From Methylophilus sp. (lineage in GTDB: Bacteria > Pseudomonadota > Gammaproteobacteria > Burkholderiales > Methylophilaceae), in assembly GCF_008015755.1 (NCBI RefSeq), contig NZ_SSGF01000017.1, positions 1-64,000 of the forward strand: 64,000 nt of DNA, in the 5' to 3' direction. This document shows positions 19,267 to 37,164 of the stretch, one piece after another. The notes under the pieces are model-generated. The model had not been told where the DNA came from. It was given only the letters and a program-made list of their open reading frames with translations, and made no database searches. Every line of letters starts with the position of its first letter. Position 1 is the stretch's first letter. A program made the translations under genes and the position numbers.

Positions 19267-19803
19267 ATGGCATCAGTCAATAAAGTGATTTTGATGGGCA
19301 ATCTGGGACGTGACCCGGAAGTGCGCTATATGCCAAACGGTGAGGCAGTCGCAAACTTCAGTATTGCCACCACCGAAAACTGGAAAGACAAATCCGGCGC
19401 ACGCCAGGAAAAAACCGAATGGCACAACATTGTCATGTATCGTCGCTTGGCCGAAATCGCTGGCGAATACCTGAAAAAAGGTCGCCCGGTATACATTGAA
19501 GGTCGTTTGCAAACCCGCAAATGGGAAAAAGACGGCGTGACCCGTTATAGCACCGAGATCGTGGCGGACCAGATGCAAATGCTCGGCACCGGCCGTGAAG
19601 GTGGTAGTGCCCCTTATGAAGGCGGCGAGATGGACCAAGGCGGTGGCATGGACGATTACAACCAGGCGCCACCACGCCAGCAACCTGCTGCCATGGGCGG
19701 CGGTAACAATGCCGGTGGTGGCAACCGCAACGCCTTCCAGCCCGCGCCAGCGAGCAAGCCCGCAGGCAACTTTGATGATTTTGATGACGATATTCCATTT
19801 TAG
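19267..19803 (+). CDS. ssb: Single-stranded DNA-binding protein SSB
   Basis: Coats single-stranded DNA as a tetramer in replication and repair. The 178 residues consist of an OB fold (about 1-110; [35 protein letters not shown]), a Gly/Gln/Asn/Pro-rich flexible linker, and the acidic tip DDFDDDIPF that binds partner proteins. Length and motifs are standard. The last codons and the following terminator are duplicated imperfectly at 22.3 kb, which marks this 3' end as the insertion point of the accessory island. The island insertion leaves the coding sequence intact. Confidence 0.97.
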
Positions 19804-19952
19804 CCCTTATAAAGATGATTCTGTAAAGAATAAGATTATTAAATGAAGTAACAGTCTTCACTAATCAGATAGTTACAATAAATCAGGCCCTCTTCTTTCT
19901 GTTAAGAAATTAGAGGGCTTTTTTCATTCTAAAAAAATGTGAAGTTATAAGT
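19795..19952 (+). repeat. Direct repeat copy A: ssb 3' end plus terminator
   Basis: The block starts at CCATTTTAGCCC (last ssb codons) and runs through the terminator to GTGAAG...TAAGT. A diverged copy occurs at 22285-22415. Long identical pieces include AATAAATCAGGCCCTCT, CTGTTAAGAAATTA and GGCTTTTTTCATTCT. It is read as one end (att-like site) of an integrated element. Confidence 0.7.
19887..19925 (+). terminator. Rho-independent terminator of ssb
   Basis: GCCCTCT and AGAGGGC form a stem around an 18-base loop, followed by a T run, about 80 bases after the ssb stop. The corresponding stem in copy B is damaged (AAAAGGC). Confidence 0.8.
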
Positions 19953-20420
19953 CCTGACAAAGGAAATCTGTAAAGATAGTAATTTCAAAATAGATTTTGT
20001 AAAACAAGTACAAAAATAGAAGAAATAGAAATATTGAATGATATTGACTGATGAAATTGCGAGAATTGATAAAACCACAATTGAAATATGGCATCTTTGA
20101 TGAAAACAGAAATATTGCCCTTGTTCTTTGGATTTAAAGTTTGCGCACAATTTTATTGGTTATTAATATATTGAAAAAATGTGAAAAATTATAAATAAAA
20201 CAATGCGGGCAGCGATGTTGAAGATCTTCCGCATTTGGTTATGCCAAGAGTTCATACATGCATGATTCTACTTATTTCAAGAAGTATGGGTACAACGCAT
20301 AACGTACTCTCTTAGTTTTTAACTGGCATTGAATGGGTAGCACTCCTGCTTACCATTATTTAATGGACTACACATGATCTGCAGTGCGGAAGAAACTGGG
20401 CATTTAGTGTGTGCGTTAAA
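19953..20420. other. AT-rich region without a recognisable gene
   Basis: About 470 bases of AT-rich sequence. Only a weak inverted repeat (AATGCGG ... CCGCATT, near 20202-20236) stands out. No gene or clear promoter was identified. Confidence 0.4.
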
Positions 20421-20552
20421 ATGGTAACTAAATACAATCTTGCAGCTTTTCCAGAGCAGCAGGAACGCGATTTGGTTGGCTTTATAGAAGGGTCAACACA
20501 CTCTACTAAATTCCAGTCACCTAATTCGATGAAGCGGCTTTCTACCAGATGA
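20421..20552 (+). CDS. Possible small ORF coupled to lipoprotein gene
   Basis: A 43-residue reading frame (MVTKYNLAAFPEQQERD...) whose TGA overlaps the ATG of the next gene in an ATGA junction. The next two genes share the same kind of overlap, which suggests translational coupling and is the only argument that this frame is real. No domain is recognised and no convincing ribosome binding site is present. Confidence 0.3.
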   Translation: MVTKYNLAAFPEQQERDLVGFIEGSTHSTKFQSPNSMKRLSTR

Positions 20553-20953
20553 AGCCGTATACATATTATGCTTCTGCGCTGTTGGCTCGACTCGTCTGGC
20601 TTGCAGTGTTATTGGCGATAGGCGGCTGTGCCACAGACGCCACTGTTCAGCCAGATGGAACGCTTGTTCGACATTATATAGGCTATGTCCGAGTGGCCGT
20701 GCCTCAAGCCGAGGCTAAACAACCAGTTTACGTTTCTGATGTTTCTACCATCGGAATCCGCGTGGGCGATGGCATGGGTATAGGTTACTCACGCGATAAG
20801 AGCCTTGTAATTCCTTTGGACTGCAGGCTTGTCGTACTTGTGGCAACCCAAGAGCAGCTTGATGACGCGGTTAGGAAGTTGTCTTTTTTCAAAGGAATGC
20901 CAGGATTTTGTGCTGCAGTAAGTCCAACCCTTCAGTCTGGAGATGCTAAATGA
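20549..20953 (+). CDS. Putative lipoprotein
   Basis: Encodes 134 residues with a lipoprotein signal peptide: a hydrophobic stretch LVWLAVLLAIGGC ends in a lipobox whose Cys is at about residue 28, so the product is probably anchored to the outer membrane or inner-membrane face. The mature part is short, beta-rich and without a recognised domain. A GIRVGDGMGIGYSRD segment is Gly-rich, and two further Cys residues (LDCRLVV, GFCAAV) could form a disulfide. The gene overlaps the next lipoprotein gene by four bases (ATGA), implying a common function. It belongs to the small element stacked behind ssb. Confidence 0.65.
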   Translation: MKPYTYYASALLARLVWLAVLLAIGGCATDATVQPDGTLVRHYIGYVRVAVPQAEAKQPVYVSDVSTIGIRVGDGMGIGYSRDKSLVIPLDCRLVVLVATQEQLDDAVRKLSFFKGMPGFCAAVSPTLQSGDAK

Positions 20954-21723
20954 AAAGTTTGCTGAATTCTTTTAGTTTTACTAAACATACGATTCCCATA
21001 GTCTTATTGCCTGTGTTATTTGGTTGTACTGCAACTCCCAAACACACAAATGTTTTGATATTCGGTACAAATACTAAAGTGGCTCTTGATGTATCTCAAG
21101 ATGCAACAGCAAGTGTTGGCGTCACGCTAGGCTATAAGCGACAGGAAGCTGTATGGATGCCACTTCTGCCAAATCAAGCTACCACTACAGAGGATGGTTT
21201 GAAACCTTCTACTTGTACAACCGCAGATTGCCCAAAGTTTGAAGGAGTTGATGGGGTGCAGAGGGATACCTACTCTGTACTAGCTAGTTTTGGCTCCAAG
21301 CTAGGTGGCGGCATTGATTCAGAAGGTAAGAAAGCACAAGTTACTGGGGAAATTGCTCAGTATTTTGCCACCGGCTTAGCAGCAAGAATGCTCGCACAAA
21401 ATGGCGGAGCAGGACTCGTTAATACAAATGGTAACGGTGCGTTGACCGCTGCTCAACAAGCAGAAATAGCAGACAAGGTGAAAGTGATGGATAACGAGTT
21501 CAATGAATTGTTGATAGAGCTGATGGACTCGAAAGATCCAAACAAAGTCAATACAGCTCGTCGAGATCAGGCACTTGCGAAGCCGCCTGGAATCAATATT
21601 GCAGAGAGTCGGCGAAAACGAATAGTGGCCGCAAACTCAATGGATGAGCTCAAAAAGGTTATTACAGCCTACCCCCATGAAAGCATTGCTAAGCCCATGC
21701 TAGATACATTAAACGCTAAATAA
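20950..21723 (+). CDS. Putative lipoprotein of unknown function
   Basis: A 257-residue protein with signal peptide and lipobox (IVLLPVLFGC, Cys at about residue 26). The mature N-terminal part contains IFGTNTKVALDVSQDATASVGVTLGYKRQEAVWMPLLPN, a pattern I recall from widespread uncharacterised proteobacterial exported proteins. The central part (about 155-185) is Ala/Gln-rich and may be helical. A conserved Cys pair lies in STCTTADCPKF. It starts within the stop of the preceding lipoprotein gene, so the two are likely made together. No enzymatic motif is visible. Confidence 0.65.
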   Translation: MKSLLNSFSFTKHTIPIVLLPVLFGCTATPKHTNVLIFGTNTKVALDVSQDATASVGVTLGYKRQEAVWMPLLPNQATTTEDGLKPSTCTTADCPKFEGVDGVQRDTYSVLASFGSKLGGGIDSEGKKAQVTGEIAQYFATGLAARMLAQNGGAGLVNTNGNGALTAAQQAEIADKVKVMDNEFNELLIELMDSKDPNKVNTARRDQALAKPPGINIAESRRKRIVAANSMDELKKVITAYPHESIAKPMLDTLNAK

Positions 21724-21734
21724 AGGAGCTAAGT

Positions 21735-22224
21735 ATGTCTGCACAAGAAGTTTCAATCGCTGTGTTCTCTACAATTGTTGATGCAAATGCTCATATCAAA
21801 TCCAAAGAAGGTCAAGGTTTTGTGTTGGAAAAAAATATCGAAACATTTGAAAATGTTTCCTACGACAATCTGACTAGGCGCAATCAGGTAAGTGATGATG
21901 CAAGTGGGCATACTTGGGCTGTAATAATGCGTAGATAGCCGTATCGACATTGCAATCAAAGCAAAAACAGCATGTTATTTTGCTATGCCCTCAGGCGATC
22001 TTTGGAAGCTATCCGTGCCTGGTTCTCCACTATATGTAATCGAACACTTCAACGATGGATTAATTACGTTTCCAGGTTGACTTCCAATAGTCGATAAGGA
22101 CGGTATGCTTATTGGTGCAATTGGTGTGAGCGGAGACGCAGTGGAGAATGATCATCTGGTTGCTCAAGCTGGAGTGAATGTAGCTGGTGTTTGCGACGTT
22201 CCTAAACACCCATGGCGTACATAA
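21735..22224 (+). pseudogene. Broken GlcG/HbpS-family (heme-binding-like) gene
   Basis: The first part is the 67-residue ORF at 21735-21938, which has a strong AAAGGAG ribosome site. Its tail [14 protein letters not shown] matches the 'VVDASGHL...MRMD' start of the GlcG/HbpS (DUF336) domain. Directly after its TAG the sequence continues in another frame as [18 protein letters not shown], ...[18 protein letters not shown], an in-frame TGA at 22078-22080, then LPIVDKDGMLIGAIGVSG and ...HLVAQAGVNVAGV up to a TAA at 22224. Family members read FPGGLPI at the TGA, so one G-to-T change explains the stop. The 5' end does not resemble the family. The gene therefore carries a frameshift and a nonsense change and is probably dead. 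Confidence 0.7.
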
Positions 22225-22284
22225 GCTTCCTACAGACTAATATAAGAAAAAATTAAGATTTAATGGACACGATTGTGACTATCA

Positions 22285-22415
22285 CCATTCTAGCCCATGT
22301 GAAGATGATTAAATAAAGTAGTAATCTTTAAGTTAGTTGCAATAAATCAGGCCCTCTCCATTCTGTTAAGAAATTAAAAGGCTTTTTTCATTCTACAAAA
22401 TGTGAAGCTGTAAGT
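22285..22415 (+). repeat. Direct repeat copy B of the ssb 3' end/terminator
   Basis: Begins with CACCATTCTAGCCC, which corresponds to ssb codons for the C-terminal tip and stop, then AAGATGATT and the terminator region (AATAAATCAGGCCCTCT, TTCTGTTAAGAAATTA, GGCTTTTTTCATTCTAC, AAAATGTGAAG). Relative to copy A it lacks about 20 bases after GATGATT and a few more further on. It separates the small lipoprotein element from the tyrosine-recombinase element. Confidence 0.7.
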
Positions 22416-22847
22416 TTCCCTAAAGTAAGCCTTCGGTTTCTTCAAAACTCATTCGGTTGTTTCATTCACAAAAGTTATGAGTTCAAAGTGATTTCTATTT
22501 CATACATTTATAGAGGAGTGTTCTACCAAAGATTTTTTAATATTTACGTTTGTCATGAGTGTCATTTTGAAAGACATTTTGTACTTTAAAAAACTTTACA
22601 CATAGCTTTTTCATATCTCTGATGATTAGTATTATCAATATAATTAAGAATTGAGAAACGCAACACTGAATTATACGATTTGTTAATTTTAATTATTAAT
22701 TATATTTATAATCAATGATTTATAAATTTTTCGGTTTATATTCATGGTAAACCACCACACCTTCCATTCCTTTTTCAGATATGCAAGTATGTAATAACAA
22801 TGTAAAGAAATCACTTGTTAACTTGCATCTTATTTGGAAAATACCCC
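22416..22847. other. AT-rich region upstream of the integrase module
   Basis: About 430 bases of very AT-rich DNA between repeat copy B and the first recombinase. It presumably contains the recombinase promoter and recombinase-binding sites. I could not identify a specific motif. Confidence 0.4.
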
Positions 22848-24017
22848 ATGAGAATTTTGAGAGTTATGCATGAAACGGGCGAGTCACTGCCTATTTTAGT
22901 GGATGAAGATGGATTGCCTATCCCGTCTCCAAATGAGTTTGTTTTCTTTCGGAGACACAAAAGTTACAACACGATTACGCGAAATCTAAGAGAGTTGGCG
23001 GTCTTCTATAAGTGGTTATCAGACAGGGATATCGACTTAGAGGAACGAATAACTTCAGGAAAGCTTCTCACAGAGGCGGAGACCAGTACAAGCTTAGTTG
23101 GGTTTTTAAGAAAAAACCTTGAAGTGGGGCACAAACCGGTTTCACCGAAAGTTTTTAATCTTCGATTAATCACAGTCCGTCTTTATCTTTTATGGAAAAT
23201 AGATGTGCAGATGTCCTCTTTGATATTTTCGGATCCTCGATACAGCTTTATTTCATCTGCTAGATACCGCTTAATTTCCAGATTTGAAAGATTGTTTATT
23301 AATTCCCCAACGAATACCGGGGATATAGTTAGCAAATCGTTGACCCAGGATCAAGCACAATTCTTGTTGAATTGCTTGAATCCCAGAAATACAGAATCGT
23401 TCGGATTTTTTGAACCTGTTAAGTATAGAAATTTCACTGCAATATACTTGATGCTAGCTTGTGGGATTAGACCTGGCGAATTGCTTAGTCTTCGCCTAGA
23501 GGATCTGAAGCTGAATGGTATTCCATCGTTAACGATCATGCGCAGAGATCCAGATCCAAATGACTCAAGAAATCCTAAACCTAGTATAAAGCGGAATGGA
23601 AGAATTCTCAGACTATCGAATATTAGTCATTTAAGAGTAATAGATTCTTATTGCACCGTTTATCGTGAGAAGCTTGTTGATAGATCGATTGCAAGTTCGG
23701 ATTACTTAATTCTGAATGATGAGGGTGGACCTTTATCGCATGGCTCTCTAACACAATTATTTATTCGACTTAGAAATGTATATCCGCATGCATTACCAAA
23801 AATATTGTCGCCAAAGGCATTAAGACATACTTACTCTATCGAACTAGAAAGGGAGCTAGAGGCTTCCGGCATGGAATATGAGCGTAGACAGCAGGCTTTA
23901 GCATATGCAAGAGGTGACTCAAGTTTGGAGTCACAAAGAGTTTACACGGATGAAGAAATCCATCGGCAAGTTAGAGAAGCCTCTGCCAACTATCAAAAAA
24001 AATTATTAGGGGAGTAG
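22848..24017 (+). CDS. Tyrosine recombinase/integrase, first of three
   Basis: A 389-residue site-specific recombinase. The ATG at 22848 has GGAAA upstream; the track's start adds 11 unsupported residues. The N-terminal SAM-like core-binding region lies at about 25-125. The catalytic domain shows the first Arg in ACGIRPGELLSLR, the box II region SPKALRHTYSIELE with His and Arg, and a candidate nucleophile Tyr in SQRVYTDEEI. It is followed within 8 bases by a second recombinase, then a third and a small protein, a fixed four-gene mobility module. Known multi-recombinase modules of this kind (GInt-type islands, Tn554-like elements) integrate at defined sites, which fits the location behind ssb. 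Confidence 0.88.
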   Translation: MRILRVMHETGESLPILVDEDGLPIPSPNEFVFFRRHKSYNTITRNLRELAVFYKWLSDRDIDLEERITSGKLLTEAETSTSLVGFLRKNLEVGHKPVSPKVFNLRLITVRLYLLWKIDVQMSSLIFSDPRYSFISSARYRLISRFERLFINSPTNTGDIVSKSLTQDQAQFLLNCLNPRNTESFGFFEPVKYRNFTAIYLMLACGIRPGELLSLRLEDLKLNGIPSLTIMRRDPDPNDSRNPKPSIKRNGRILRLSNISHLRVIDSYCTVYREKLVDRSIASSDYLILNDEGGPLSHGSLTQLFIRLRNVYPHALPKILSPKALRHTYSIELERELEASGMEYERRQQALAYARGDSSLESQRVYTDEEIHRQVREASANYQKKLLGE

Positions 24018-24025
24018 GTGAGTAC

Positions 24026-25624
24026 ATGGTATCCCCAATTAGCATAGACAACATTTTTCCGTTCGAAGGAAAAAATCTCCTTGAGTTTTATACGCGTGAG
24101 GGATTCAGTGTAAACATCGAATCTGATATCTGGGTTTTGCCAGTTACTAATAGAGCCAGCAGAATTAACTTCTCAAATATCCAAAATTTGAATCTCAAAG
24201 GTTTAATTAAAGACTTTATTGTTGATCAGGCTTCACGAGTGTCAAGTACCTCCGCGTTGAATTATTTTTTTGAAATATCGAGGTTCATCATCTCTCGTGA
24301 AAGAGATTTCAAGCTTTTTAATGATATCTCATCTAAGGAGTTTGAAGAGAGATTAATCTCATTAATCGAGGATGTTATCAATGCAGTAAGAAGAAAACAC
24401 AAGCTTCATGATTTTTACAGGATACGGGAGTGGTATGTCTGGTGCAGTGAAGTTTATCCAGAAGTAGGGTTTTCTGAATTATATGCAAACCAGTTAGATG
24501 CGATGACTATCCCAGGTAATCCTAAAGGGGAAGCTGTACGCATGCAAGATCCTGAATCAGGACCGCTAGACCGGGTGTTGGAATTACCGCTTTTGATTAA
24601 TGCTTTGAAAGAGGACAAGAGTAATCTTTATATCCATTTACAGCAAAAGGCAGTAATCGCATTATCTTTAGCCTTTGGAAGAAATCCCTCAAACCTTACT
24701 TATTTACTAGAGTCGGATCTTGAGGATAAAACCTTGGGAATAGGGGGTGAACCTTGTTATTGCCTAAAAATGCCTAGGATAAAAAAAGGGTTACTTAATC
24801 CAAGAGACGACTTTATTGAAGAGTACTTGAATTCCACATTTGCTGCCCATGTCAAAGCTCTCATTAACGCGCCTAAACCAATACAAATTAAATATGGTGA
24901 TGAAGAGGATTCAAAAGTAACCATTAACCCGTTATTCATTAACTTGAGCGGGAATAGTTACGCCATAGCTTCAGGTCGTATCGACTGTAAATACAATATG
25001 CTTTCAACAGGAATTGGTAAGCTTATTAAGGATTTTATTAAACGGCACAATTTAGTTTCACCCCTTACCCAAAAATTGTTACACATCACACCACGGAGGT
25101 TGAGATACACCTTTGCTACTGGGCTTGTCCTTGAAGGTATTTCATCCAGAGAGTTGGCGAGAGCTCTCGATCACACTGATACACAAAACACGACTGTTTA
25201 TTTTGAGCTTGGTGAAAAAATTGTTGCCCCTTTAGACCGGGCTATTGAGAAAGGTTTTTCTAAAAATCTAAATTATTTCAAAGGAAAAATAGTGGAAAGT
25301 GAAGATGAGGCTATTAATGGGAAAAGAAATGACAAATCTGTTTTCTTTTTTGATGAAAGAAATATTGAAAATCAAGAAATGATTGGAATTTGTGGGGAAA
25401 AGCAGCTTTGCCGACTTGATCCACCCTATTCTTGTTATCTTTGTCCGAAATTTCAACCATACCGTCAAGCGGATCATGAACATGTTCTTAATTGTCTTAT
25501 AGCAGGTAGAGAAGAAAAACTTAAGAAGTATGAAAATGCTCGATTAGGAATCCAGTTGGATGAAGTGATCGCTGCTGTATCTCAAGTTGCTAGGGAGTGT
25601 GAAAGGCTAGGGAAAAATGACTGA
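24026..25624 (+). CDS. Tyrosine recombinase-like protein, second of three
   Basis: A 532-residue protein, longer than simple integrases. The catalytic domain contains the first Arg in LSLAFGRNPSNLTYL, box II TPRRLRYTFATGLVLEG, HTDTQNT, and the candidate Tyr in NTTVYFELG. The C-terminal extension has a Cys/His cluster (CGEKQLCRLDPPYSCYLCPKF, then HVLNC) that looks like a metal-binding module. GGAGTAGGTGAG supplies the ribosome site. Its stop overlaps the start of the third recombinase by 8 bases. The low G+C and codon use match the rest of the island and differ from the flanking chromosome. Confidence 0.85.
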   Translation: MVSPISIDNIFPFEGKNLLEFYTREGFSVNIESDIWVLPVTNRASRINFSNIQNLNLKGLIKDFIVDQASRVSSTSALNYFFEISRFIISRERDFKLFNDISSKEFEERLISLIEDVINAVRRKHKLHDFYRIREWYVWCSEVYPEVGFSELYANQLDAMTIPGNPKGEAVRMQDPESGPLDRVLELPLLINALKEDKSNLYIHLQQKAVIALSLAFGRNPSNLTYLLESDLEDKTLGIGGEPCYCLKMPRIKKGLLNPRDDFIEEYLNSTFAAHVKALINAPKPIQIKYGDEEDSKVTINPLFINLSGNSYAIASGRIDCKYNMLSTGIGKLIKDFIKRHNLVSPLTQKLLHITPRRLRYTFATGLVLEGISSRELARALDHTDTQNTTVYFELGEKIVAPLDRAIEKGFSKNLNYFKGKIVESEDEAINGKRNDKSVFFFDERNIENQEMIGICGEKQLCRLDPPYSCYLCPKFQPYRQADHEHVLNCLIAGREEKLKKYENARLGIQLDEVIAAVSQVARECERLGKND

Positions 25625-27641
25625 TGGACGATCTTTTAGACAAGCCAAAGTGGTTGCATTTCTTAGCAAGTTTGATAAGGATAGGGTCAAGAATTTTAAT
25701 GAGCTGATCAAAGTCGCTAAGTGTTTCGAGTTTACTGGTTTTGAAAATGTGAATTGGGAAGATGATCTTTGGACAGTAACAGGAGGGCGCTTAACTAAAC
25801 TTCCAGGTAGAAAAGTTAAGAGTATTAGTATTAAGTTCAAACCGCCAGAAAAATTATGCTTCGATATGACTTCTGAATGGAAAGATGTCATTAAGGCACT
25901 ATTTCTACATCGGTTTCATGAGAAAAATCAGTCACTAACGAGCCAGAGGTTCTTTATTACTGCCGTTGTATATATAGCTAACGCTTCAAATGAGTTAGGG
26001 AAAAGTTTAATCTCATTAACGCCAGAGGTGCTCGACAATGCCTGTGTTCTTATTTCGAAACATTACTCGGAAACCACAGCTTATAGTCTTCATAAAAATG
26101 TCTGTGAATTTGCCGCGCATTGCGACAGTAACAAATTATGCAAAACTTTATTTAAATATAAATATGCAGGTATGAAGCGACCTTCAAAGGTTGGAGGCTT
26201 GGGCGGTGCGATTGACAATGGTATTGACTATGAAGACGCTCAGGATACCGCAGGAGAAAAAATAGTAGCACCAGAGGTATATGCAGTCATTGGTGAGCTT
26301 CATAGAAATGTCCCAAAATTACATAAATACCGGTTATATGTTTTGATGCTAACTTTATTCGCTTGTTTAGGAAGAAGGTTTAGTGAAATTTCACTTTTGC
26401 CAAATCAATCAATTTCAAGAAATGCCAAGGCATTAGCCTATATAGAATACTTTCCAGAAAAGCAGTATCAAGGCGACACCTTAACTCCAAAACGAAAACT
26501 CTACTTATATTCTCAAGTAGTTGGCGTTGTTGAGGAGGTTCTTTCTGAGTTAGAAACCTTAACAGCGGCGTCTCGTTCTACAGCGATACAAATGCATAAA
26601 AATAATGCGGCCGATTTGCGATTTTTGGAAAATATAAATGAGAACCAAAAGTTATATCCTGCCGATCTTAGAGCGCTTGGAATCTCCGATACACTTTTGA
26701 CCTCGACTGGTTGGCTGAGGCAGAAAGATCGTGCTTGGCCTGATTACGACGCAAAGACACTCCAGGGAATAGTTCCTGCTAATGCCATTCACTTTACCTA
26801 CGTGAAACATCTGCGAGAATATTGCTCGAAGTATTATGAGGAAACCAGTACATCAGTAATAAGAGTAGATCAATTTGGAAAAGAATATTTTACTAAGGAT
26901 TTTTTATTCATAAGGCCACTAGGAATTTCTAGTGGAACTTATGCACCTTGGTTGGCTACTATTTGCACCCACTCCATGTTTTCAACATTTCAAAGATATT
27001 TAGAAAATCTAGTCAAGGAGTTTGCTTCAAAAAGTTTGAGTGTAAGCTTCACAAGCCACCATTTCCGTCATACCTTGAATACCTTACTTGATGAGGGTGG
27101 TTTGAGTGATTTGATGCAAACACATTGGTTTGCAAGATCTAATCCAGGAGACACCAAAGCGTATCAGCATACTCCCCCGGCAAAGAGGGCTTTAATGCTA
27201 CACGAAGCAATTAAAGGTGGGAAGGTGGGTGGGAGATTAGCTGAACAAATTGAAATTTTACCAGTTGAGCTTCATGACGCAATTTTAAAGGCACGGATTC
27301 AAGCCGTGCATGATGTTGGTCCTGGCCTTTGCATACATCCATTTTCGCAGATTCCTTGTGAAAAGCATTTAGAGTGCTCTGCAGACTGTAAGGATTATTT
27401 ATGGGTTAAGGACGATAAGGCTCGCCTTTCAGAGCAAAAGCGACAATACGCTATTAACTCCTTGGCTTTAGAAACTGCTGAAGCTATACAAAAATCCACT
27501 AAACCTAAGAAAAGTATTGACTGGATTAATCACACGAAAAAGAAGTTGAAAACGTTAGGCGCACAATTAAATGACAATGGTGTTTTCGACTTTAACCCTA
27601 TAGAGTATTTAAAAGAAATTGGTTATGGCAAAGAACTTTAG
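25617..27641 (+). CDS. Tyrosine recombinase-like protein, third of three
   Basis: The largest of the set, 674 residues. The catalytic region shows the first Arg in FACLGRRFSEISLLPN, box II TSHHFRHTLNTLL, and the candidate Tyr in DTKAYQHTPPAKRA. After it come a Cys-containing segment (LCIHPFSQIPCEKHLECSADCKDYLW) and a Lys/Gln-rich helical tail. The long N-terminal part (1-220) has no domain that I recognise. It begins eight bases inside the preceding gene and overlaps the next small gene at its 3' end, so all four are probably one translationally coupled operon. Confidence 0.83.
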   Translation: MTDGRSFRQAKVVAFLSKFDKDRVKNFNELIKVAKCFEFTGFENVNWEDDLWTVTGGRLTKLPGRKVKSISIKFKPPEKLCFDMTSEWKDVIKALFLHRFHEKNQSLTSQRFFITAVVYIANASNELGKSLISLTPEVLDNACVLISKHYSETTAYSLHKNVCEFAAHCDSNKLCKTLFKYKYAGMKRPSKVGGLGGAIDNGIDYEDAQDTAGEKIVAPEVYAVIGELHRNVPKLHKYRLYVLMLTLFACLGRRFSEISLLPNQSISRNAKALAYIEYFPEKQYQGDTLTPKRKLYLYSQVVGVVEEVLSELETLTAASRSTAIQMHKNNAADLRFLENINENQKLYPADLRALGISDTLLTSTGWLRQKDRAWPDYDAKTLQGIVPANAIHFTYVKHLREYCSKYYEETSTSVIRVDQFGKEYFTKDFLFIRPLGISSGTYAPWLATICTHSMFSTFQRYLENLVKEFASKSLSVSFTSHHFRHTLNTLLDEGGLSDLMQTHWFARSNPGDTKAYQHTPPAKRALMLHEAIKGGKVGGRLAEQIEILPVELHDAILKARIQAVHDVGPGLCIHPFSQIPCEKHLECSADCKDYLWVKDDKARLSEQKRQYAINSLALETAEAIQKSTKPKKSIDWINHTKKKLKTLGAQLNDNGVFDFNPIEYLKEIGYGKEL

Positions 27642-28092
27642 ACGCATGACAGATCGAGATGTTGCACAAGTTGTTGCCGAGCTTGACCGTTGGGCATTAG
27701 GGGCATTGGGTTCAAAACTCACGTGGAGTGCGTTAGAGGAAAGATTCCAGTTTAGTCGCCAGTCTTTACAAGCAAAGTCTGCAATTAAGGCCGCATATTT
27801 AGAGGCAAAACAAGCCTTGTCCGGAGGGCTTGTTAAAACAAAGGATCAGGCTATAAAACAAGCTGAAGATTTGCAAGTTGAAATTCGGAGGCTGAAGTCT
27901 GAAGTTGAGGCTAGTAGTCGTAGGGAGAAGATATGGTTGCTAAGGTGGCAGACAATTGCTTTTAACATTCGCAATCAGGGTATACAAATGACTAATGTAG
28001 ATAAAAAGCTAAACGGAAAAGTTAACCTGCCGTCAAAAACTGAAACGGCAAAGATACTTAAGCCATTTGAAAAACCCTTGGGTGAGAAATAA
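27625..28092 (+). CDS. Small coiled-coil partner of the integrase module
   Basis: 155 residues from the ATG at 27625; the track begins two codons earlier at TTG. The N-terminal part (about 10-60) looks like a helix-turn-helix (TWSALEERFQFSRQSLQAKSAIKAAY), and residues about 70-105 form a coiled coil (DQAIKQAEDLQVEIRRLKSEVEAS). A short protein of this type follows three recombinases in comparable modules (ginD in GInt islands, and functionally TnpC of Tn554). I assign it as the accessory DNA-binding or orientation factor on context alone. It overlaps the third recombinase gene by 17 bases. Confidence 0.7.
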   Translation: MAKNFRRMTDRDVAQVVAELDRWALGALGSKLTWSALEERFQFSRQSLQAKSAIKAAYLEAKQALSGGLVKTKDQAIKQAEDLQVEIRRLKSEVEASSRREKIWLLRWQTIAFNIRNQGIQMTNVDKKLNGKVNLPSKTETAKILKPFEKPLGEK

Positions 28093-28135
28093 AAGTTGCC
28101 AAAAGATATGCTTTTAATTGATTAATATTTCGTAA

Positions 28136-28432
28136 GCGCCAATTTCCCCACGCATTACAATTAGCCTCAATATACTTAATACTACCTCATTTCTGGATGG
28201 TATAGAACATGATGCCGCGGATTTAGGCTTAGCGATCGAGCTTTACAATGGTCATTTATTAACTGATGAAACATTACGTCTACGCAATATCATGGCAGCT
28301 GCTGCAGCCCATTTTGAGTCTAGAGAAGCAATAGATCCACTGAATTTACTAACCCAAGCACAGCCAATGTCGCTGAGCCTAAACATAAGCTCTAATCAGC
28401 GTAACTCTGGAAGAGATTATTACGAAGGATAA
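28136..28432 (+). pseudogene. Possible truncated ORF ending in QRNSGRDYYEG
   Basis: An open frame not in the track, running from a TAA at 28133 to a TAA at 28430. It translates convincingly (FLDGIEHDAADLGLAIELYN, then LRLRNIMAAAAAHFESREAI) but lacks an ATG until 28292 and has no ribosome site, so the gene has probably lost its 5' end. Its last residues NQRNSGRDYYEG echo QQRNANRDYYEL at the start of the next ORF, suggesting shared ancestry or a shared motif. Function unknown. Confidence 0.35.
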
Positions 28433-28463
28433 TCATTTCAATCTCAAAAGCAGTATATCCATC

Positions 28464-28817
28464 ATGACCAATCAAGCCCAAAATACAAATATCAATATCG
28501 CTGATCAGCAAAGAAATGCTAACCGAGATTACTATGAGCTTAGTTCGGCACCATCCATGAGAGTGTATATGGCAACTCGTTCAGATGATGATTTAGACCG
28601 GGTAGCAGTGACGAATCAGCGGATGTTCAAGTATCGCTTTGGATTGACCACTAATGCGACGGTGCGCTCAAAGATAATTGCAATCAAGAATCGGTACAAT
28701 TTAACCGACCTGGAGGTCGAAAAATTGATTAGTTCTGGTCAAATCAGAGTTAAACAGAATCAAGTTTTTGTGATGCCTGACAGTTTATCGCCTATTTTGG
28801 TTATGTTATTTTACTAG
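28464..28817 (+). CDS. Hypothetical protein with QRNANRDYYE motif
   Basis: A 117-residue protein that I do not recognise. The N-terminus is polar (MTNQAQNTNINIADQQRNANRDYYEL) and shares the QRN-x2-RDYYE motif with the end of the preceding open frame. The central region is basic and probably helical (TVRSKIIAIKNRYNLTDLEVEKLISSGQIRVKQNQVFV). No signal peptide or membrane helix is seen. It lies between the integrase module and the metal-efflux operon. Confidence 0.5.
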   Translation: MTNQAQNTNINIADQQRNANRDYYELSSAPSMRVYMATRSDDDLDRVAVTNQRMFKYRFGLTTNATVRSKIIAIKNRYNLTDLEVEKLISSGQIRVKQNQVFVMPDSLSPILVMLFY

Positions 28818-28837
28818 TCATCAGTTTTGTTTGTGGG

Positions 28838-29074
28838 TTGAATATACTCGCTGTCAGCGAAGCCCCCTCATCTCCATGGAAAGTTCTTATAGCGCTTAGT
28901 ATGATATTTAGCGTCTGGAGTATATGCATCTACTACACAAAGAAGTTTATGGTGTCGCCTTGGCGAATTCTGAAGCGCTCCGGGATTCTTAGTGACATAC
29001 CAGAAATCAATATCTTGGATAGTCTACTAATGCGCTCGTTTGTTGTGGATACAAGTACACATAGTCACAATTAG
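28838..29074 (+). CDS. Small membrane protein, hypothetical
   Basis: A 78-residue ORF starting at TTG (28838), with one clear transmembrane helix at about 14-34 (WKVLIALSMIFSVWSICIYY) followed by a basic segment, giving a predicted inner-membrane protein. It begins 20 bases after the previous stop. No family is recognised, the start codon is unusual and there is no strong ribosome site, so it may not be expressed. Confidence 0.35.
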   Translation: MNILAVSEAPSSPWKVLIALSMIFSVWSICIYYTKKFMVSPWRILKRSGILSDIPEINILDSLLMRSFVVDTSTHSHN

Positions 29075-29206
29075 GTGTAATACGAATAATAGAATTTCGC
29101 CATTAGTTGTTACACACTAGAGTTTTATAATTTATTCAAATTGAATAATAAATCTATTAACTACTTACTAACATACCCTTATTCTTAGTAGAATGAGGAT
29201 TGAATC

Positions 29207-29578
29207 ATGAAAAACCTTTTCCTTTTACTACTGATATCAATAGTGACACTGCAACCGCTCTATGCGGCTACGGCAGATTTCGCACATATGTTGAGTTCGG
29301 AGAGTACAGAGGACAAAACTATCAATCATATGATTGAGCATTTTGATCATGTTGCACATCACCATGATGAGGATGGCGACTCTCATGAAGATGAGTCTCA
29401 ACAATCTGTGGCTCACATGATAGATTTTGAGCACGGCTTGAATTTGGTATCAATACCAATGGCGGCTCCAAAAGTATTACTCAATCAACTGGTAAGTGCG
29501 GTTCCGCTTTACTTCCCAGTGGTTTACTTTAATCCATCTAATTCCCCGCCCTTAAAGCCCCCTTATAAAGCCCTCTAA
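29207..29578 (+). CDS. CzcI-like His-rich periplasmic protein
   Basis: A 123-residue exported protein with signal peptide MKNLFLLLLISIVTLQPLYA. The mature part is rich in His, Asp and Glu (HFDHVAHHHDEDGDSHEDES) and ends with a Pro-rich tail (SPPLKPPYKAL). Its position just upstream of a CzcCBA-type efflux operon and its composition match CzcI-type proteins, thought to bind metal and modulate induction of the pump. The function is inferred from this context. The gap to the outer-membrane gene is 67 bases, so one operon is likely. Confidence 0.72.
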   Translation: MKNLFLLLLISIVTLQPLYAATADFAHMLSSESTEDKTINHMIEHFDHVAHHHDEDGDSHEDESQQSVAHMIDFEHGLNLVSIPMAAPKVLLNQLVSAVPLYFPVVYFNPSNSPPLKPPYKAL

Positions 29579-29645
29579 GTGCCTGGCAAGTAATTCTTGC
29601 TGGGCGCTTTGCACGTTTATTTAATCAACATGCAGGGGCTTTTCC

Positions 29646-30902
29646 ATGATTTTTTCTTCAAAGGTACTGTGCCAATATCGGCTCAGAGCATATAACTTAC
29701 TCATCCATGCAAGCTTGCTTTGCTTCATACAAGCACATGCTGAAGATGTGCCATCATTTGGTGTATTACTGCGCCAAGGACTCTCTCAAGCGCCTATCTT
29801 ACTTGAGCAGTCAGCAAATATTCGTGCAGCAACCGCGAATATTCAGCAAGCTAAAGCTTACTTAAATCCTTCTATCAGCGGTCTCAGCGAAAACCTAAAC
29901 ACAAGAGCCGACTACATCCAGCATACAGTTCTCTTAACTCAGCCATTCGAAATTGGTGGTAAGCGTGCTGCACGAATCGAAGCAAGATCAAAAGATTTAT
30001 TAGTAGCTGAAACACGTGACCAGGAAATACAAGTCTTGTATGCAGCGGAACTCGCTACTGCTTATGCCATGACAGAGGCGATGCATGAGCGAATGAAAGT
30101 GGCAGAGAATGATATTTCCAGAGCCAACGACGATACCAATGCTGCAAAAACATTAGTTGAGTCTGGTAGGGAAGCAAGCTTACGCGTCTCTCAAGCTCAG
30201 GCAAATCTTTCAGCAGCAGAAGCTGCGTTTCAAGCCGCGGAAGCTAACTTCATAGAAGCAATGGTGCGATTATCCGCATTGGCAGGTTCAACTTCGACAT
30301 ATACAGGGCTGGGTGAAAGTTTTACCTCAAAAATACTTTCTGAAAATCGTGCAAGAAAAGATGATTCAGAAACTTCACCAGCAATTCGCAGAGCGCAGGC
30401 TGAACATGAGGCCCTACTTTCCCAAGTTACAGTCGAAGAAAAAAGAAGTATTCCAAATATTGAGGTAAGTGCTGGTGTTAGGCACTTCGAGGGTATCAGC
30501 AGCCAGGCTTTTGTGATCGGATTTGGGTCTGCAATCCCGATATTTGACCAGAATAAAGGTGGTATTGCTGCGGCTAATGAAAGAGCCATTGCGGCGGAAG
30601 CTCGCTTGAATGCCACAAAACTTCAAGTTAATGCAAACCTACAGGCAGCCACTGCTCAAGTCAACGCATCAGAGAGGCGACTTAAGGCAGCCCGAGAAGG
30701 TGAGCGCGCAGCTACACAAGCATATCAACTCGCAAAAACTGGGTACGAAGCGGGCAAAACTCCTCTTATAGAGTTGCTCTTTACCCGCAAATCTCTGACT
30801 GACGCAAAACTATCCACCATTGATGCGAGTTTTACATTCGTCAAATCATTGGCAACCCTAGCTACCGCCGAAGGGCGCATCGCATTTGGAGATTTTAAAT
30901 GA
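29646..30902 (+). CDS. czcC: Outer-membrane efflux protein, CzcC/TolC family
   Basis: Forms the outer-membrane exit duct of a heavy-metal RND pump. The 418 residues start with a long signal region (about 1-35, cleaved after IQAHA) and contain the two repeated helical-barrel segments of outer membrane factors (LEQSANIRAATANIQQAKAYLNPSISG and its later counterpart ATQAYQLAKTGYEAGKTPLIELLFTRKSL). AGGGG precedes the ATG. It overlaps the adaptor gene by four bases (ATGA). Gene symbol by analogy: this could equally be called cnrC or nccC because the metal cannot be told from the sequence. Confidence 0.85.
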   Translation: MIFSSKVLCQYRLRAYNLLIHASLLCFIQAHAEDVPSFGVLLRQGLSQAPILLEQSANIRAATANIQQAKAYLNPSISGLSENLNTRADYIQHTVLLTQPFEIGGKRAARIEARSKDLLVAETRDQEIQVLYAAELATAYAMTEAMHERMKVAENDISRANDDTNAAKTLVESGREASLRVSQAQANLSAAEAAFQAAEANFIEAMVRLSALAGSTSTYTGLGESFTSKILSENRARKDDSETSPAIRRAQAEHEALLSQVTVEEKRSIPNIEVSAGVRHFEGISSQAFVIGFGSAIPIFDQNKGGIAAANERAIAAEARLNATKLQVNANLQAATAQVNASERRLKAAREGERAATQAYQLAKTGYEAGKTPLIELLFTRKSLTDAKLSTIDASFTFVKSLATLATAEGRIAFGDFK

Positions 30903-32080
30903 GTTTCTCTAAGACAATAAAGATCGGTGCTTTACTGGGGCTGACAGCGATTGCTTTTCTATTAGTCGGCTACAAGCTGGCAAGTTGGCAAAATCAAAAC
31001 GTGCCTGCTAAACAAGAAAAAGAGTCGGTGAATTCCAAAGAATCACCCATTGAAACGCCGCTTGAAAAAGAAATTGTGATTCAAGATCAATTTATCGAAT
31101 CATCCGGTATAAAAGTCTCTAAGGCAGATGTGGGACAGGTAAGTAATGAGATATTAGCTCCAGCGCTTGTTTCCACACCTCCCGGCGCTGAAGCCATTGT
31201 CATTGCCAGAGTTGCTGGCACTATCAAGCAAATCTATAAACGCTTGGGAGATACCGTTAAAGCAGGTGAAACCGTCGCGATTGTAGATAGCCTGGAAGCC
31301 ACTCGCATGACCGCAGAAAGAAAGTCTGCTATTGCGAAACTAGAACTCGCCAAGAAAGTGTTTGCGAGAGAGTCGATGTTGTTTGAAAAAGGGGTAACAC
31401 CTCGCCAGGACTTGGAAGCTGCTCAATCTGAATTAAGTGTTGCTGAAGCTGAGGCCTCAGAAGCTCAGATGCTAATACGAGCTGCGCATATTGCTCCAGA
31501 TGGCCATTCAGTCCTTGTTGTTAGCGCGGTGGATGGGAAAATCACTGCTGAGACTGCAACAGTGGGAGCATTTGTACAACCTGAAACATCACTATTCAGT
31601 ATAGCCAACGACAAACAGATCCAAATTAATGCGTTCATCACTGCGCAAGATTTCTCGAAAGTCAAAGTCGGTGACTCTGCCACAATTTTGAGTCGTAATG
31701 ATCAAGAGTACAGCGCCAAAGTAAGGTCTATCACTCCGTCAGTCAATGGCTCTAATCAAACAGCCACGGCGATATTAACGCTTGAAGATAAAAACACATC
31801 GCTAGTCATCGGCGAAGGCGTGCAAGTAAGACTGCATACCGTGTCAGCCAATCAAAGTGACATGATTGTGCCTGAAGATGCTATCCAGAATATCGAAGGT
31901 AGGGATGTGGTGTTTATAAAAACAAAAGTCGGCTTTAAACCCCATCCAGTAGTCGTTAGCCAACGAGGCAATGGATATGCTCAGATTCTGTCTGGACTGG
32001 ACCGTAACCTTTTGGTTGCTACTAAAAATGCTTTCTTGATTAAAGCTGAGATGATTAAAAACGCACCGGAGGAAGATTGA
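30899..32080 (+). CDS. czcB: RND periplasmic adaptor, CzcB family
   Basis: Membrane-fusion protein linking the inner-membrane pump to the outer duct, 393 residues. An N-terminal anchor (KIGALLGLTAIAFLLVGYKLA) is followed by the barrel-sandwich/lipoyl hybrid (PGAEAIVIARVAGTIKQIYKRLGDTVKAGETVAIVDS), a helical hairpin (about 135-195, KLELAKKVFARESMLFEKGV) and beta-barrel domains (QINAFITAQDFSKVKVGDSATI). No Cys-rich or His-rich metal-binding extension is visible. It overlaps both neighbours by four bases, consistent with a tight operon. Confidence 0.87.
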   Translation: MSFSKTIKIGALLGLTAIAFLLVGYKLASWQNQNVPAKQEKESVNSKESPIETPLEKEIVIQDQFIESSGIKVSKADVGQVSNEILAPALVSTPPGAEAIVIARVAGTIKQIYKRLGDTVKAGETVAIVDSLEATRMTAERKSAIAKLELAKKVFARESMLFEKGVTPRQDLEAAQSELSVAEAEASEAQMLIRAAHIAPDGHSVLVVSAVDGKITAETATVGAFVQPETSLFSIANDKQIQINAFITAQDFSKVKVGDSATILSRNDQEYSAKVRSITPSVNGSNQTATAILTLEDKNTSLVIGEGVQVRLHTVSANQSDMIVPEDAIQNIEGRDVVFIKTKVGFKPHPVVVSQRGNGYAQILSGLDRNLLVATKNAFLIKAEMIKNAPEED

Positions 32081-35000
32081 TGAATAGCATCTTGAGCTTT
32101 GCAGTCAACTTCCGGTGGCTGGTAATTTTTCTTACATTCATTATGACTGGGATCGGTGCCTGGCAACTCAATCTACTACCGATTGATGTGACGCCTGACA
32201 TTACTAATAAACAGGTACAAATCAATACGGTAGTGCCAACATTAACGCCGGTGGAAGTTGAAAAACGCGTGACGTATCCCATTGAAACCGCGATTGCCGG
32301 TTTGAATGGCGTTGAGAATTTCCGTTCGTTTTCAAGAAATGGTTTTAGCCAAGTCACGGTCATTTTTAAAGAAAGTGCCAACCTCTACTTTATGCGGCAG
32401 CAGGTTGCAGAGCGACTATCACTCGCTAGGGCCAACTTGCCAGACGGTGCCGAACCGATCATGGGTCCTGTATCAACTGGTCTTGGAGAAGTGTTTCATT
32501 ACAGTGTTGAATTCGCATTTCCTGATGGAAAGAATGCCCCCAGAATAGATGGAAAACCAGGCTGGCAAACAGACGGAAGTTTCCTCACTGATGAAGGTCA
32601 GCGTCTTTACGGTCGTATCTCACAATTAGCTTATCTACGCACCGTTCAGGATTGGATTATTCGACCACAACTACGAACAACGGCTGGGGTTGCTGATGTT
32701 GATAGTCTGGGTGGATATGTGAAGCAATACGTGGTTGAACCCGAGCCTAATAAGTTATCAGTTTATGGCATATCCCTACAGCAGCTAGGCAAAGCGCTGG
32801 AAGAAAACAACACATCGGTTGGAGGTAATTATATTCAACGGTCAGGTGAAGCTTATCTTGTCCGAGCAGATGGTCGAATCAAAACGATTGAAGATATATC
32901 GCATGCAGTAGTCACCACTAAACAAGGTGTACCAATCAGTGTTGAGCAAGTAGCCAAGGTAAGTATCGGCGGAGAACTTCGGACTGGCGCCGCAAGCCGG
33001 GATGGCTATGAAACAGTGGTTGGTAGTGCGTTAATGCTTGTGGGTGCCAATAGCAGGATCGTTGCCGGTGCTGTAGGAGAGAAGCTAAAAGTAATCGGTA
33101 ATACTCTCCCACCAGGCATTGTCATTGTTCCAACGTTAGACAGATCTCAGCTTGTGATTGCAACCATCTCCACAGTCTCTAAAAACCTTGTTGAAGGCGC
33201 TTTGCTTGTTGTAGTGGTTCTGTTTGTTTTACTTGGTAATTGGCGCGCAGCATTGATTGCGGCGCTTGTTATCCCGATTTCATTTATGTTGAGTGCCATT
33301 GGGATGAACTCGCTCAATATATCCGGTAATTTAATGAGCTTGGGGGCATTGGACTTTGGCCTGATTATAGATGGCGCAGTCATCGTTGTAGAAAATGCTT
33401 TACGCAGACTCTCTGAGCGACAAAAACATCTTGGCCGCCGACTTGAATTAAATGAGCGGTTAGAGGAAGTGATTGCATCATCCAAAGAAATGGTTCGGCC
33501 TTCGGTATATGGTCAAGCAGTCATTTTTCTAGTGTTTTTGCCTTGCCTGACATTCCAAGGGGTTGAAGGCAAAATGTTCTCACCTATGGTAATCACCCTT
33601 ATGTTGGCTTTGGCATGTGCGTTTGCACTTTCCATGACATTTGTACCTGCATTAATAGCCATATTTCTCAAAGGCGATTACCAGGAGAAAGAAACATTCC
33701 TCGTAAAGAAAACAAAGCATTTATACGAACCTCTTTTGCATCGAGTAATGGCGTCTCCACGCATGTGTATTGCCATTGCGGCGCTCGTTTTAGTCGCAGC
33801 AGGATTCACCTTTAAAAATGTAGGTAGCGAATTTATGCCTACATTGGATGAGCAAAATCTCAATCTGTCTTCAGTGCGGATTGCCTCTACATCCATTGAG
33901 CAATCTGTGGCACTGGATCTGCTTTTAGAAAAAGCATTGCTGAAGTTGCCAGAGGTCGAAACTGTTTACTCAAAAGCAGGTACGGCCAGTTTAGCTGCCG
34001 ACCCTATGCCGCCTAATGCTTCAGATAACTACATCATTCTTAAACCTAAATCAGAGTGGCCTGAAGGCATTACCACTAAACAGCAAGTCATTGATCGTAT
34101 TAGAACAGCTACGGAGCCTATTATTGGCAACAATTATGATGTAACTCAACCAATTGAGATGCGCTTTAACGAATTGATTGGTGGGGTTCGAAGCGACGTG
34201 GCAGTAAAACTATATGGCGATGATGTAGACCAACTGGCGCTCGCTGCTAAACATATCTCAAATGTGTTGCGTAAAACACCCGGAGCTATTGATACACGGG
34301 TTGCCCAGACAAGTGGATTCCCAACGTTTGAAATCACCTTTGACCGTGCAGCTATTGCTCGCTATGGATTAACTGTCAAAGAGGTTGCTGATACAGTTTC
34401 TGCGGCGTTGGCCGGGTTACCTTCAGGCCAGATATTTGAAGGAGATAAACGTTTTGATGTGACGATCAGGATGCCACTTGAACAGCGTAATAATCTGGAT
34501 ATTATCGGTTCATTGCCAATCGTAACTTCTGTTGGGGGTGAGCAATTCTCAGTGCCTCTTAGGCAGTTGGTGCAGTTCAAGTTTACCCAAGGCATGAATG
34601 AAGTAAGCCGTGATAACGGCAAGCGACGTATTTACATTGAAGCTAATGTGGAAGGTCGAGACTTAGGTAGTTTTGTCGCTGATGCACAGAAACGCATAGA
34701 ACGAGAGGTCAAATTACCCACTGGCTCCTGGATTGAATGGGGTGGACAGTTCCAAAACCTTCAAGAAGCCACCGAACGTCTTTCAATGATTGTACCCATA
34801 TGCCTGTTATTGATCGCAGCGGCTATTTACCTTGCAATTGGCAATATTGGACTATCAGCAATCGTGATGACGACGGTTCCGCTAGCTATGGCCGGCGGGG
34901 TATTCGCATTGGCACTCAGAGGTATTCCGTTCTCGATCTCGGCTGCCGTTGGATTTATCGCAGTTTCGGGTGTAGCTGTTTTAAATGGCTTGGTATTGAT

Positions 35001-35265
35001 CTCTGCTATTAAAAAACGTATTGATGCCGGTATACCTGTAGAAGAAGCTGTGAGTGAAGGCTCCATGGAACGATTCAGACCAGTAATGATGACAGCATTG
35101 GTAGCGATACTTGGGTTTATTCCAATGGCGATCGCCACCACTACAGGAGCTGAAGTTCAAAAGCCTCTTGCGACGGTGGTTATTGGCGGGCTAATGTCTG
35201 CCACAGCCTTAACTCTCTTAGTTTTGCCGGCATTAACCACCATGCTTCTTAAGCGTAATAAATAG
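32077..35265 (+). CDS. czcA: Heavy-metal RND efflux pump, CzcA/CnrA family
   Basis: Proton-driven inner-membrane pump of 1062 residues expelling divalent cations (Co, Zn, Cd or Ni) from the periplasm or cytoplasm. Both RND halves are present, each with a large periplasmic loop and six membrane helices. The HME signature DVTPDITNKQVQINT follows helix 1, and helix 4 has the proton-relay motif ALDFGLIIDGAVIVVENAL typical of the Czc/Cnr/Ncc branch (a DFG-x3-D-x6-E pattern) rather than the Cus branch. The SVGGNYIQRSGEAYLVR porter region is also conserved. Which metal is transported cannot be decided by eye. It starts inside the czcB stop. Confidence 0.92.
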   Translation: MMNSILSFAVNFRWLVIFLTFIMTGIGAWQLNLLPIDVTPDITNKQVQINTVVPTLTPVEVEKRVTYPIETAIAGLNGVENFRSFSRNGFSQVTVIFKESANLYFMRQQVAERLSLARANLPDGAEPIMGPVSTGLGEVFHYSVEFAFPDGKNAPRIDGKPGWQTDGSFLTDEGQRLYGRISQLAYLRTVQDWIIRPQLRTTAGVADVDSLGGYVKQYVVEPEPNKLSVYGISLQQLGKALEENNTSVGGNYIQRSGEAYLVRADGRIKTIEDISHAVVTTKQGVPISVEQVAKVSIGGELRTGAASRDGYETVVGSALMLVGANSRIVAGAVGEKLKVIGNTLPPGIVIVPTLDRSQLVIATISTVSKNLVEGALLVVVVLFVLLGNWRAALIAALVIPISFMLSAIGMNSLNISGNLMSLGALDFGLIIDGAVIVVENALRRLSERQKHLGRRLELNERLEEVIASSKEMVRPSVYGQAVIFLVFLPCLTFQGVEGKMFSPMVITLMLALACAFALSMTFVPALIAIFLKGDYQEKETFLVKKTKHLYEPLLHRVMASPRMCIAIAALVLVAAGFTFKNVGSEFMPTLDEQNLNLSSVRIASTSIEQSVALDLLLEKALLKLPEVETVYSKAGTASLAADPMPPNASDNYIILKPKSEWPEGITTKQQVIDRIRTATEPIIGNNYDVTQPIEMRFNELIGGVRSDVAVKLYGDDVDQLALAAKHISNVLRKTPGAIDTRVAQTSGFPTFEITFDRAAIARYGLTVKEVADTVSAALAGLPSGQIFEGDKRFDVTIRMPLEQRNNLDIIGSLPIVTSVGGEQFSVPLRQLVQFKFTQGMNEVSRDNGKRRIYIEANVEGRDLGSFVADAQKRIEREVKLPTGSWIEWGGQFQNLQEATERLSMIVPICLLLIAAAIYLAIGNIGLSAIVMTTVPLAMAGGVFALALRGIPFSISAAVGFIAVSGVAVLNGLVLISAIKKRIDAGIPVEEAVSEGSMERFRPVMMTALVAILGFIPMAIATTTGAEVQKPLATVVIGGLMSATALTLLVLPALTTMLLKRNK

Positions 35266-35275
35266 GGAGATTTCG

Positions 35276-36598: not shown

Positions 36599-36606
36599 TC
36601 ATCAAT

Positions 36607-36640
36607 AAAAAAGCGGCCAGCAAGGTGCTGAGCCGCTTTT
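36607..36640 (+). terminator. Terminator at end of the czc operon
   Basis: AAAAGCGGC and GCCGCTTTT form a perfect 9-bp stem 9 bases after the MFS stop, usable in both directions between convergent units. Confidence 0.85.
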
Positions 36641-36655
36641 CATCACTCGATAAGA

Positions 36656-36832
36656 TCATTTACTCCAGTGACCAAGAACCCATTGCCATTGATGAGTCCC
36701 GTAATCCCATCTCCAATGTGCTTTTACCCATTTAGTTTTTCCTAGTGGGCGCATCGTCTGCATATTCTGCATGCGATCTATGGGCTTAGGTGGTTTGGGT
36801 GGTTTTGGGCTTTTAATTTTAAAAGTAACCAT
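36656..36832 (-). CDS. Small protein with W-x-W/GHW repeats
   Basis: A 58-residue protein too short for the ORF track. It starts at the ATG at 36832 behind GGAGGAGTAG, a near-ideal ribosome site. The sequence has a basic Pro/Lys stretch (KSPKPPKPPKPIDRMQ) and a Trp/His-rich end (WVKAHWRWDYGTHQWQWVLGHW) like the YXWQ/VWVPGHW repeats of small envelope-associated proteins. There is no signal peptide. It stands before another tiny His-rich gene on the same strand and beside metal-resistance genes. Function unknown. Confidence 0.6.
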   Translation of the reverse strand: MVTFKIKSPKPPKPPKPIDRMQNMQTMRPLGKTKWVKAHWRWDYGTHQWQWVLGHWSK

Positions 36833-36855
36833 CTACTCCTCCAGTCTCAGCCTAT

Positions 36856-36987
36856 TCAATGACAATGATAATCGCCAGTTTTTCGATCATGATGACACCC
36901 ATCTTTGTCAGTTCCCCCAGAATGCGCATGAGCAAAACTAGATCCAATGGTAAAGACCATAACTACTAAAGCAATAATTCCTTTCAT
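36856..36987 (-). CDS. Small exported YHCH-type His/Cys-rich protein
   Basis: A 43-residue product preceded by AAAGGGGG. It has a short signal peptide (MKGIIALVVMVFTIGSSFAHA) and the motif HSGGTDKDGCHHDRKTGDYHCH, which recurs at the C-terminus of many small periplasmic proteins (YHYH/YHCH type). With six His and two Cys in the mature 22 residues it could bind metal. The next small gene on the same strand begins 24 bases downstream, so they may be one unit. Too short for the track, yet the motif is clear. Confidence 0.65.
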   Translation of the reverse strand: MKGIIALVVMVFTIGSSFAHAHSGGTDKDGCHHDRKTGDYHCH

Positions 36988-37164
36988 AACCAACCCCCTT
37001 TAGGACTGTATTACATTAATGGAATCATTCACTAATCAATAGTAAATGCTTTTGAAGCATACTCCTTTCGGCATGAAGCTGCTGGAAAAGCTCAGTGGCT
37101 GGTGTATCCCTGTCCACCAGGCCTTCACTTTCAAAATATGATTACGTTAACGATGATTGAAAAC

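Follow-up and report, generated by a model that had tools for sequence, protein, structure and literature searches.

The window, by which we mean the whole stretch of 64,000 nucleotides of Methylophilus sp. DNA that was analysed, very probably carries a GInt (Tn6571-type) island, which has its insertion point in the final codons of ssb, consists of two units in tandem, and would be joined to its target by the Gin proteins across a core encoding Pro-Phe-stop. The genes, the ends, the target, the empty sites of relatives and the tandem order were all read from sequence (Table 1). The GInt-type pattern proposed by the original prediction was borne out by the order of the operon, the ssb site and the ends. 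In fact the gin operon stands at the 5' end (counted from attM, with unit A preceding) and is followed by the cargo and a short AT-rich 3' end, as in the GInt layout, and two of the features by which GInts are defined, namely three tyrosine-recombinase-like genes with a small HTH/HLH gene and a site-specific insertion between short imperfect direct repeats, are both present. What is unusual is a second, shorter unit that shares the island's left end, lacks recombinase genes and sits between ssb and the island; for it we propose a tentative mechanism.

Table 1. Positions in the window of the island, its two units and its target
Feature	Position	Strand	Remark
ssb (target gene)	19267..19803	+	tail DDDIPF-stop overlaps attachment core
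attL	19795..19806	+	CCATTTTAGCCC; agrees with left-end breakpoint of relatives
Unit A	19802..22285	+	2.49 kb, gin-less, canonical GInt left end; core at 19796
Left-end hairpin	19880..19925	+	GGCCCTC..TGTTAAG..GAGGGC then T6; repeat in its loop; relatives share the design
Unit A cargo	20549..21723	+	ORFs of 134 and 257 aa, both predicted lipoprotein-like and outside known families
attM	22285..22296	+	CCATTCTAGCCC; junction of unit A and unit B
Unit B	22292..56243	+	33.95 kb, gin operon and cargo; left-end core at 22286
ginA	22848..24017	+	tyrosine recombinase, 389 aa from ATG; R208, K248, K323xxR326, D357, Y366
ginB	24026..25624	+	tyrosine recombinase, 532 aa; R219, K254, R357xxR360, H383, Y392
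ginC	25617..27641	+	large recombinase-fold protein, 674 aa; R253/R254, H481xxR484, R507, Y516
ginD	27625..28092	+	small HTH and long-helix protein; 155 aa from ATG, 157 from TTG
Unit B cargo	28464..55796		RND metal efflux set, MFS, chromate transporter, CNNM/CBS protein, mer genes, IS21-type IstAB, Ser/Thr kinase, PDC-S64-like protein
Right-end palindrome	56079..56099	+	TGTAAAGATATTATCTTTACA; 157 bp before attR core; same place in six relatives
attR	56237..56249	+	CCGTTTTGACAGT; same as ssb end of G008
Putative displaced ssb terminator	56273..56304	+	from terminator scan; directly 3' of ssb in G008

The gin operon

Three recombinase-fold proteins and a small HTH/coiled-coil protein had been predicted from overlapping or near-adjacent genes, and this reading held: the four ORFs at 22848-28092 are open on the + strand in the gin order, with an overlap of 8 nt between ginB and ginC, and the domain matches and the models of GinC and GinD agree with it. 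All four genes are intact and keep the conserved motifs, whose residues were assigned from alignments of 18-25 sequences. With the Pfam Phage_integrase model, GinA scores above the cut-off (3.5e-9), GinB slightly under it (1.8e-5) and GinC merely 0.015, while GinB is matched end to end by NCBIfam NF041502 integrase_1 at 1.4e-72, yet below the cut-off of that model. In GinA a lysine and an aspartate replace the usual histidines, the first replacement being in register with Tn1549 Int in the alignment. No PDB chain was matched by sequence with the GinC and GinB profiles; the GinC model, built from 25 sequences, has its best fold matches in Cre, integron integrase and XerH (E 2e-3 to 2e-2), with a probability of about 1 and TM scores that are low overall, GinC having twice the length of the matched proteins. 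The GinD model shows an HTH bundle that leads into a single 46-residue helix. Profile comparison by hhalign against the remote gin operon behind ssb in the P. aeruginosa plasmid pTROUS1 gave 99.5% for GinC and 97.1% for GinD. The GinC gene is present once in the genome.

The first arginine has been reported missing from GinC (PMC5385486). In the branch studied here it is present, and GinC may therefore be catalytic; the residues listed for GinC in Table 1 are invariant in 25/25 aligned sequences, the model having low confidence around 496-519.

Insertion at the end of ssb

Read as codons, the core CC(R)TT(Y)T(R) spells the Pro-Phe-stop of the SSB tail, with its ambiguous positions at the codon wobble positions, so that insertion leaves the tail intact, and SSB indeed still ends in Pro-Phe-stop after insertion. 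This suggests that unrelated GInts choose ssb since the core is the DNA pattern of a nearly invariant protein end; ssb was found in 22/22 genomes of the genus. Compared as imperfect direct repeats, attL, attM and attR read CCATTTTA, CCATTCTA and CCGTTTTG, respectively. The cores of attL and attR are intact, and they have in common a stretch of about 8 nt, two of them mismatched, which falls short of the 10-17 nt given in the GInt literature; the empty site predicted from attL x attR is GATATTCCATTTTGACAGTC. The left flank of attM, TTGTGACTATCACC, looks like GInt right termini, and the right end in the window reads CTACC-GTTTTG-ACAGTC, its middle six bases occupying 56239-56244.

From the agreement of attR with the ssb end of a relative of the same genus (G008), the terminator behind it and the ssb-iorA linkage in another (G003, iorA 370 bp after ssb), the island is placed between ssb and iorA at 19802-56243 (36.4 kb), and the GC content falls from about 51% to 37-46% over 19.8-56.6 kb, matching this extent. 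The same terminator serves as left end to an intact but different GInt in a third genome (G010), and the copy at 56273 may be native or a left-end remnant of an older island. Altogether, the site-specific insertion at ssb suggested earlier was supported by gene content and order, the ssb linkage in relatives, exact breakpoints, the empty sites of relatives, and the right end with attR.

In the genus of about 3-Mb genomes, the closest relatives searched are mostly without this GInt family, and there are genus members in which ssb is followed by its native end or directly by iorA. Across the genus, the ssb site has the look of a hot spot whose contents turn over. Other observations were made at this site. 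In G010 (L080 and L094) the same ssb site is taken by a GInt of about 34 kb from a second family that is distantly related (about 25-30% identity), with attR near position 16690 of the L094 reverse complement. GInt-like left ends without a detectable gin operon stand behind ssb in L084/L096 (G007), L083 (G005) and L078/L079 (G015, G002). Between ssb and iorA of G008 (L081 13504-17394), a putative ThiF/E1-like protein, small partners and a HigA/HigB-like pair, all named from sequence reading, are possibly a defence set.

Relatives, linkage and breakpoints

Relatives of GinC at 33-60% identity occur in many genera, on plasmids and on one P1-type phage-plasmid. In the plasmid search the identity was 41-60% on plasmids of E. 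coli, Serratia, Citrobacter and Pseudomonas, and ssb followed by ginABCD was seen in each plasmid record opened (IncF, IncC, P1-like IncY and two Pseudomonas plasmids). Genome contigs queried with the GinC sequence of the window alone gave zero matches, while a scan with a GinC alignment including the plasmid relatives gave 35 operon-bearing loci, most of them behind ssb (Providencia, Photorhabdus, Yersinia, Acinetobacter, Pseudoalteromonas, Advenella, Phormidium and others). No GinA relative was found in phage records, and the viral contigs gave a single GinC relative. Relatives with the same module away from ssb, which the original prediction had named as evidence against itself, were looked for in the loci with more than 600 bp ahead of the detected ginA and enough contig: ssb lies upstream in 26 of these 27, and immediately so in 25, two extra ORFs separating it from ginA in L063. 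In the lone exception, from Thorsellia, the insertion is in a repeat-protein gene that ends in KDEMPF-stop; its DNA there, GATGAAATGCCGTTTTAA, mimics the SSB tail, and from this one case the target seems to be a DNA pattern and not ssb as such. Thorsellia anophelis (L049, L047, L050, L071) has several near-identical GInt copies in a single genome, one of them outside ssb in a gene ending MPF-stop.

The breakpoints are sharp. From the core inwards, the left ends of relatives are 95-99.8% identical over 5 kb, and outside the identity is about 30% (E. coli plasmid, Providencia chromosome, Chelonobacter, Advenella). The joined flanks of the Serratia plasmid island are contiguous in about 300 plasmid records, and this empty site, found in Klebsiella plasmids, was checked base by base in one record, GATCCCCTTTTGATGACG; phage P1 holds the empty site of the P1-like plasmid island, GATATTCCGTTTTGAATGTG. 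In both natural insertions attL retains the core in its target version (CTTTT, GTTTT), and attR differs (GTTCT). The opposite assignment, with the original target version in the attR core, was ruled out by the Klebsiella empty site, which showed the reverse. A GInt with a type I restriction system (L101 15531-34570) stands at ssb of a P1-like IncY phage-plasmid, and a GInt on such a replicon would open transduction as a route of GInt transfer.

Anatomy of the ends

In their 2017 GInt paper, Bardaji and colleagues identified no common 3'-end feature for self-recognition (PMC5385486). Two fixed elements were found here. The left ends of relatives have TGTNAA repeats near +24/+103/+173/+205 from the core, 57 being observed versus 15 in shuffles over 17 ends, which are related and not independent. 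At the right end, all 7/7 matches of a 21-bp palindrome pattern in 240 kb lie 157-159 bp before attR, the pattern having been drawn up from these ends; the palindrome is perfect in the window and missing from one attR (L067). Most likely the repeats and the palindrome would be the binding sites of the Gin proteins. Together they make a sequence signature of GInt ends, by which ends can be recognised even where no empty-site genome is at hand, and the signature is worth reporting. The left-end hairpin is likely the replacement terminator of ssb; such hairpins were not reported by the simple terminator scan, the loop being probably beyond its limit.

Two units in tandem

The segment at 19867-19936 is 90% identical over 70 nt to that at 22331-22400, and the likeness extends leftwards to CCATTYTAGCCC. 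The duplication noticed in the original prediction is thus real, while its identity as an ssb tail did not stand: the segment is a GInt left end, with core and replacement terminator, and marks a second, gin-less unit. Two copies of a GInt left end mean two units in tandem. In unit A the TGTNAA repeats are at +26, +104, +142, +173 and +202 from the core, canonical as in complete GInts, and unit A has neither a gin gene in the ORF list nor a right-end palindrome. In unit B they are at +12, +78, +115, +395, +515 and +530, the first repeat region being shortened, and the distance from core to ginA is 562 bp versus the usual 224 bp or so (about 340 bp extra); a left end so altered may leave unit B crippled on its own. 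Unit A and its cargo were in no other genome searched, and for the 257-aa protein a search of other genomes from the class gave no relative. A fragment at the right-hand margin of unit A (22081-22224), VDKDGMLIGAIGVSGDAVENDHLVAQAG, may resemble the end of GlcG/HbpS-type proteins. In another genome of the genus (G021, L085 1408-1807), a gene-less unit of about 0.39 kb with repeated AAATTTTGTATAGTAAA inside stands between two cores behind ssb and looks like a miniature GInt derivative.

The cargo of unit B includes metal resistance genes at 29646-35265, 38080-39429 and 42151-44970, with RND heavy-metal efflux, a chromate transporter and mercury genes (MerR, MerT, MerP-like, MerA-like), and the island is an added metal-resistance-carrying member of the ssb-type GInts. 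Moreover, a Ser/Thr kinase like the PD-T4-6 defence kinases and a match to the PADLOC candidate PDC-S64 (2e-37) were seen at 51454-52365 and 54768-55796, with uncharacterised partners adjoining; this pair and its partners are a possible anti-phage set.

Mechanism and alternative readings

Mobility, a circular intermediate and the roles of the Gin proteins are what we infer. Most likely, GinA and GinB would join the element circle to ssb across the core CC(R)TTYT, together with a third recombinase-fold partner, GinC, and with GinD in a helper role, and the island would supply a new terminator for ssb. Since the canonical left end is in unit A and the canonical right end in unit B, the outer pair attL x attR would be the best substrate. 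As a speculation that we consider doubtful, GInts may gain cargo through successive insertions into one ssb core, where gin-less units with complete left ends would enter in trans beside a GInt already in place and the resulting array would move as a composite by its outer ends (the left of unit A, the right of unit B); the tandem array makes this a testable route of cargo gain.

Concerning unit A only, and compatible with the GInt reading, it could be a non-autonomous GInt derivative that entered ssb in trans, with the gin proteins supplied by unit B or by some other GInt, which we regard as unlikely. The canonical left end with five repeats in canonical places, the absence of gin genes and the GInt-like right terminus speak for it, as does the gene-less unit of G021, whose right terminus, TTGTGAATATCACC, is nearly identical to that of unit A. 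However, past the last 15 nt the two right ends are no more similar than shuffles, the palindrome is absent, the unit was in none of the other genomes searched, and deletion of the gin genes from a once complete GInt accounts for unit A equally well. As for present activity, the island may be an old GInt insertion with decayed ends that is now immobile, which again is compatible with the GInt reading and seems rather less probable than an island that still moves: the altered left end of unit B and the IS21-type insertion in the cargo agree with decay, whereas the intact gin genes with their motifs, the intact cores of attL and attR and the perfect palindrome argue against it.

It is very improbable that the island is instead a strand-biased circularizing element (SE), with the four genes being IntA, Tfp, IntB and Srap and movement by single-strand copy-out. 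The polarity of the two natural insertions, from the attB version of the core to attL and from the element version to attR, is that of SEs (PMC10214605). However, the large non-canonical protein is third, after the two recombinases, as in GInts, whereas SEs have it second; the order intA-tfp-intB-srap was not found in the module, and SEs are described solely from Gammaproteobacteria (PMC10214605).

Comparison with known systems

SEs share with the island four genes for two recombinases, a recombinase-fold protein and a small helper, as well as the core polarity from attB to attL (PMC10214605), but differ in gene order, host range and target. RIT elements likewise have three adjacent tyrosine recombinases, but their proteins are of 315-410 aa, they have 34-bp terminal inverted repeats, and GinD is absent (PMC10214605); in the window the recombinases are of 389, 532 and 674 aa, and no long inverted repeats were found at the island ends. 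Tn554 resembles the island in its recombinases with a small helper, its site specificity and its 6-bp footprint (per PMC10214605), but Tn554 sensu stricto has just two recombinases with TnpC and lacks a counterpart of GinC, whereas three recombinase-fold genes are found here. In the literature GInts are also named the Tn6571 family (PMC10121019), Tn6488/Tn6571 are placed within the Tn554 family as ginABCD subfamilies (PMC8865565), and the transfer of GInts between cells so far lacks laboratory demonstration (PMC5385486). With GInts the island shares the ginABCD order, the operon at the left, variable cargo, an AT-rich right end and insertion at the end of ssb with SSB unchanged. It differs in the gin-less second unit between ssb and the gin unit, in a GinC that keeps the arginine, HxxR and tyrosine, and in the conserved end repeats and palindrome recognised here; of these, the fixed end repeats with the palindrome, and the gin-less unit with a canonical left end beside a gin unit with an altered one, seem to be undescribed.
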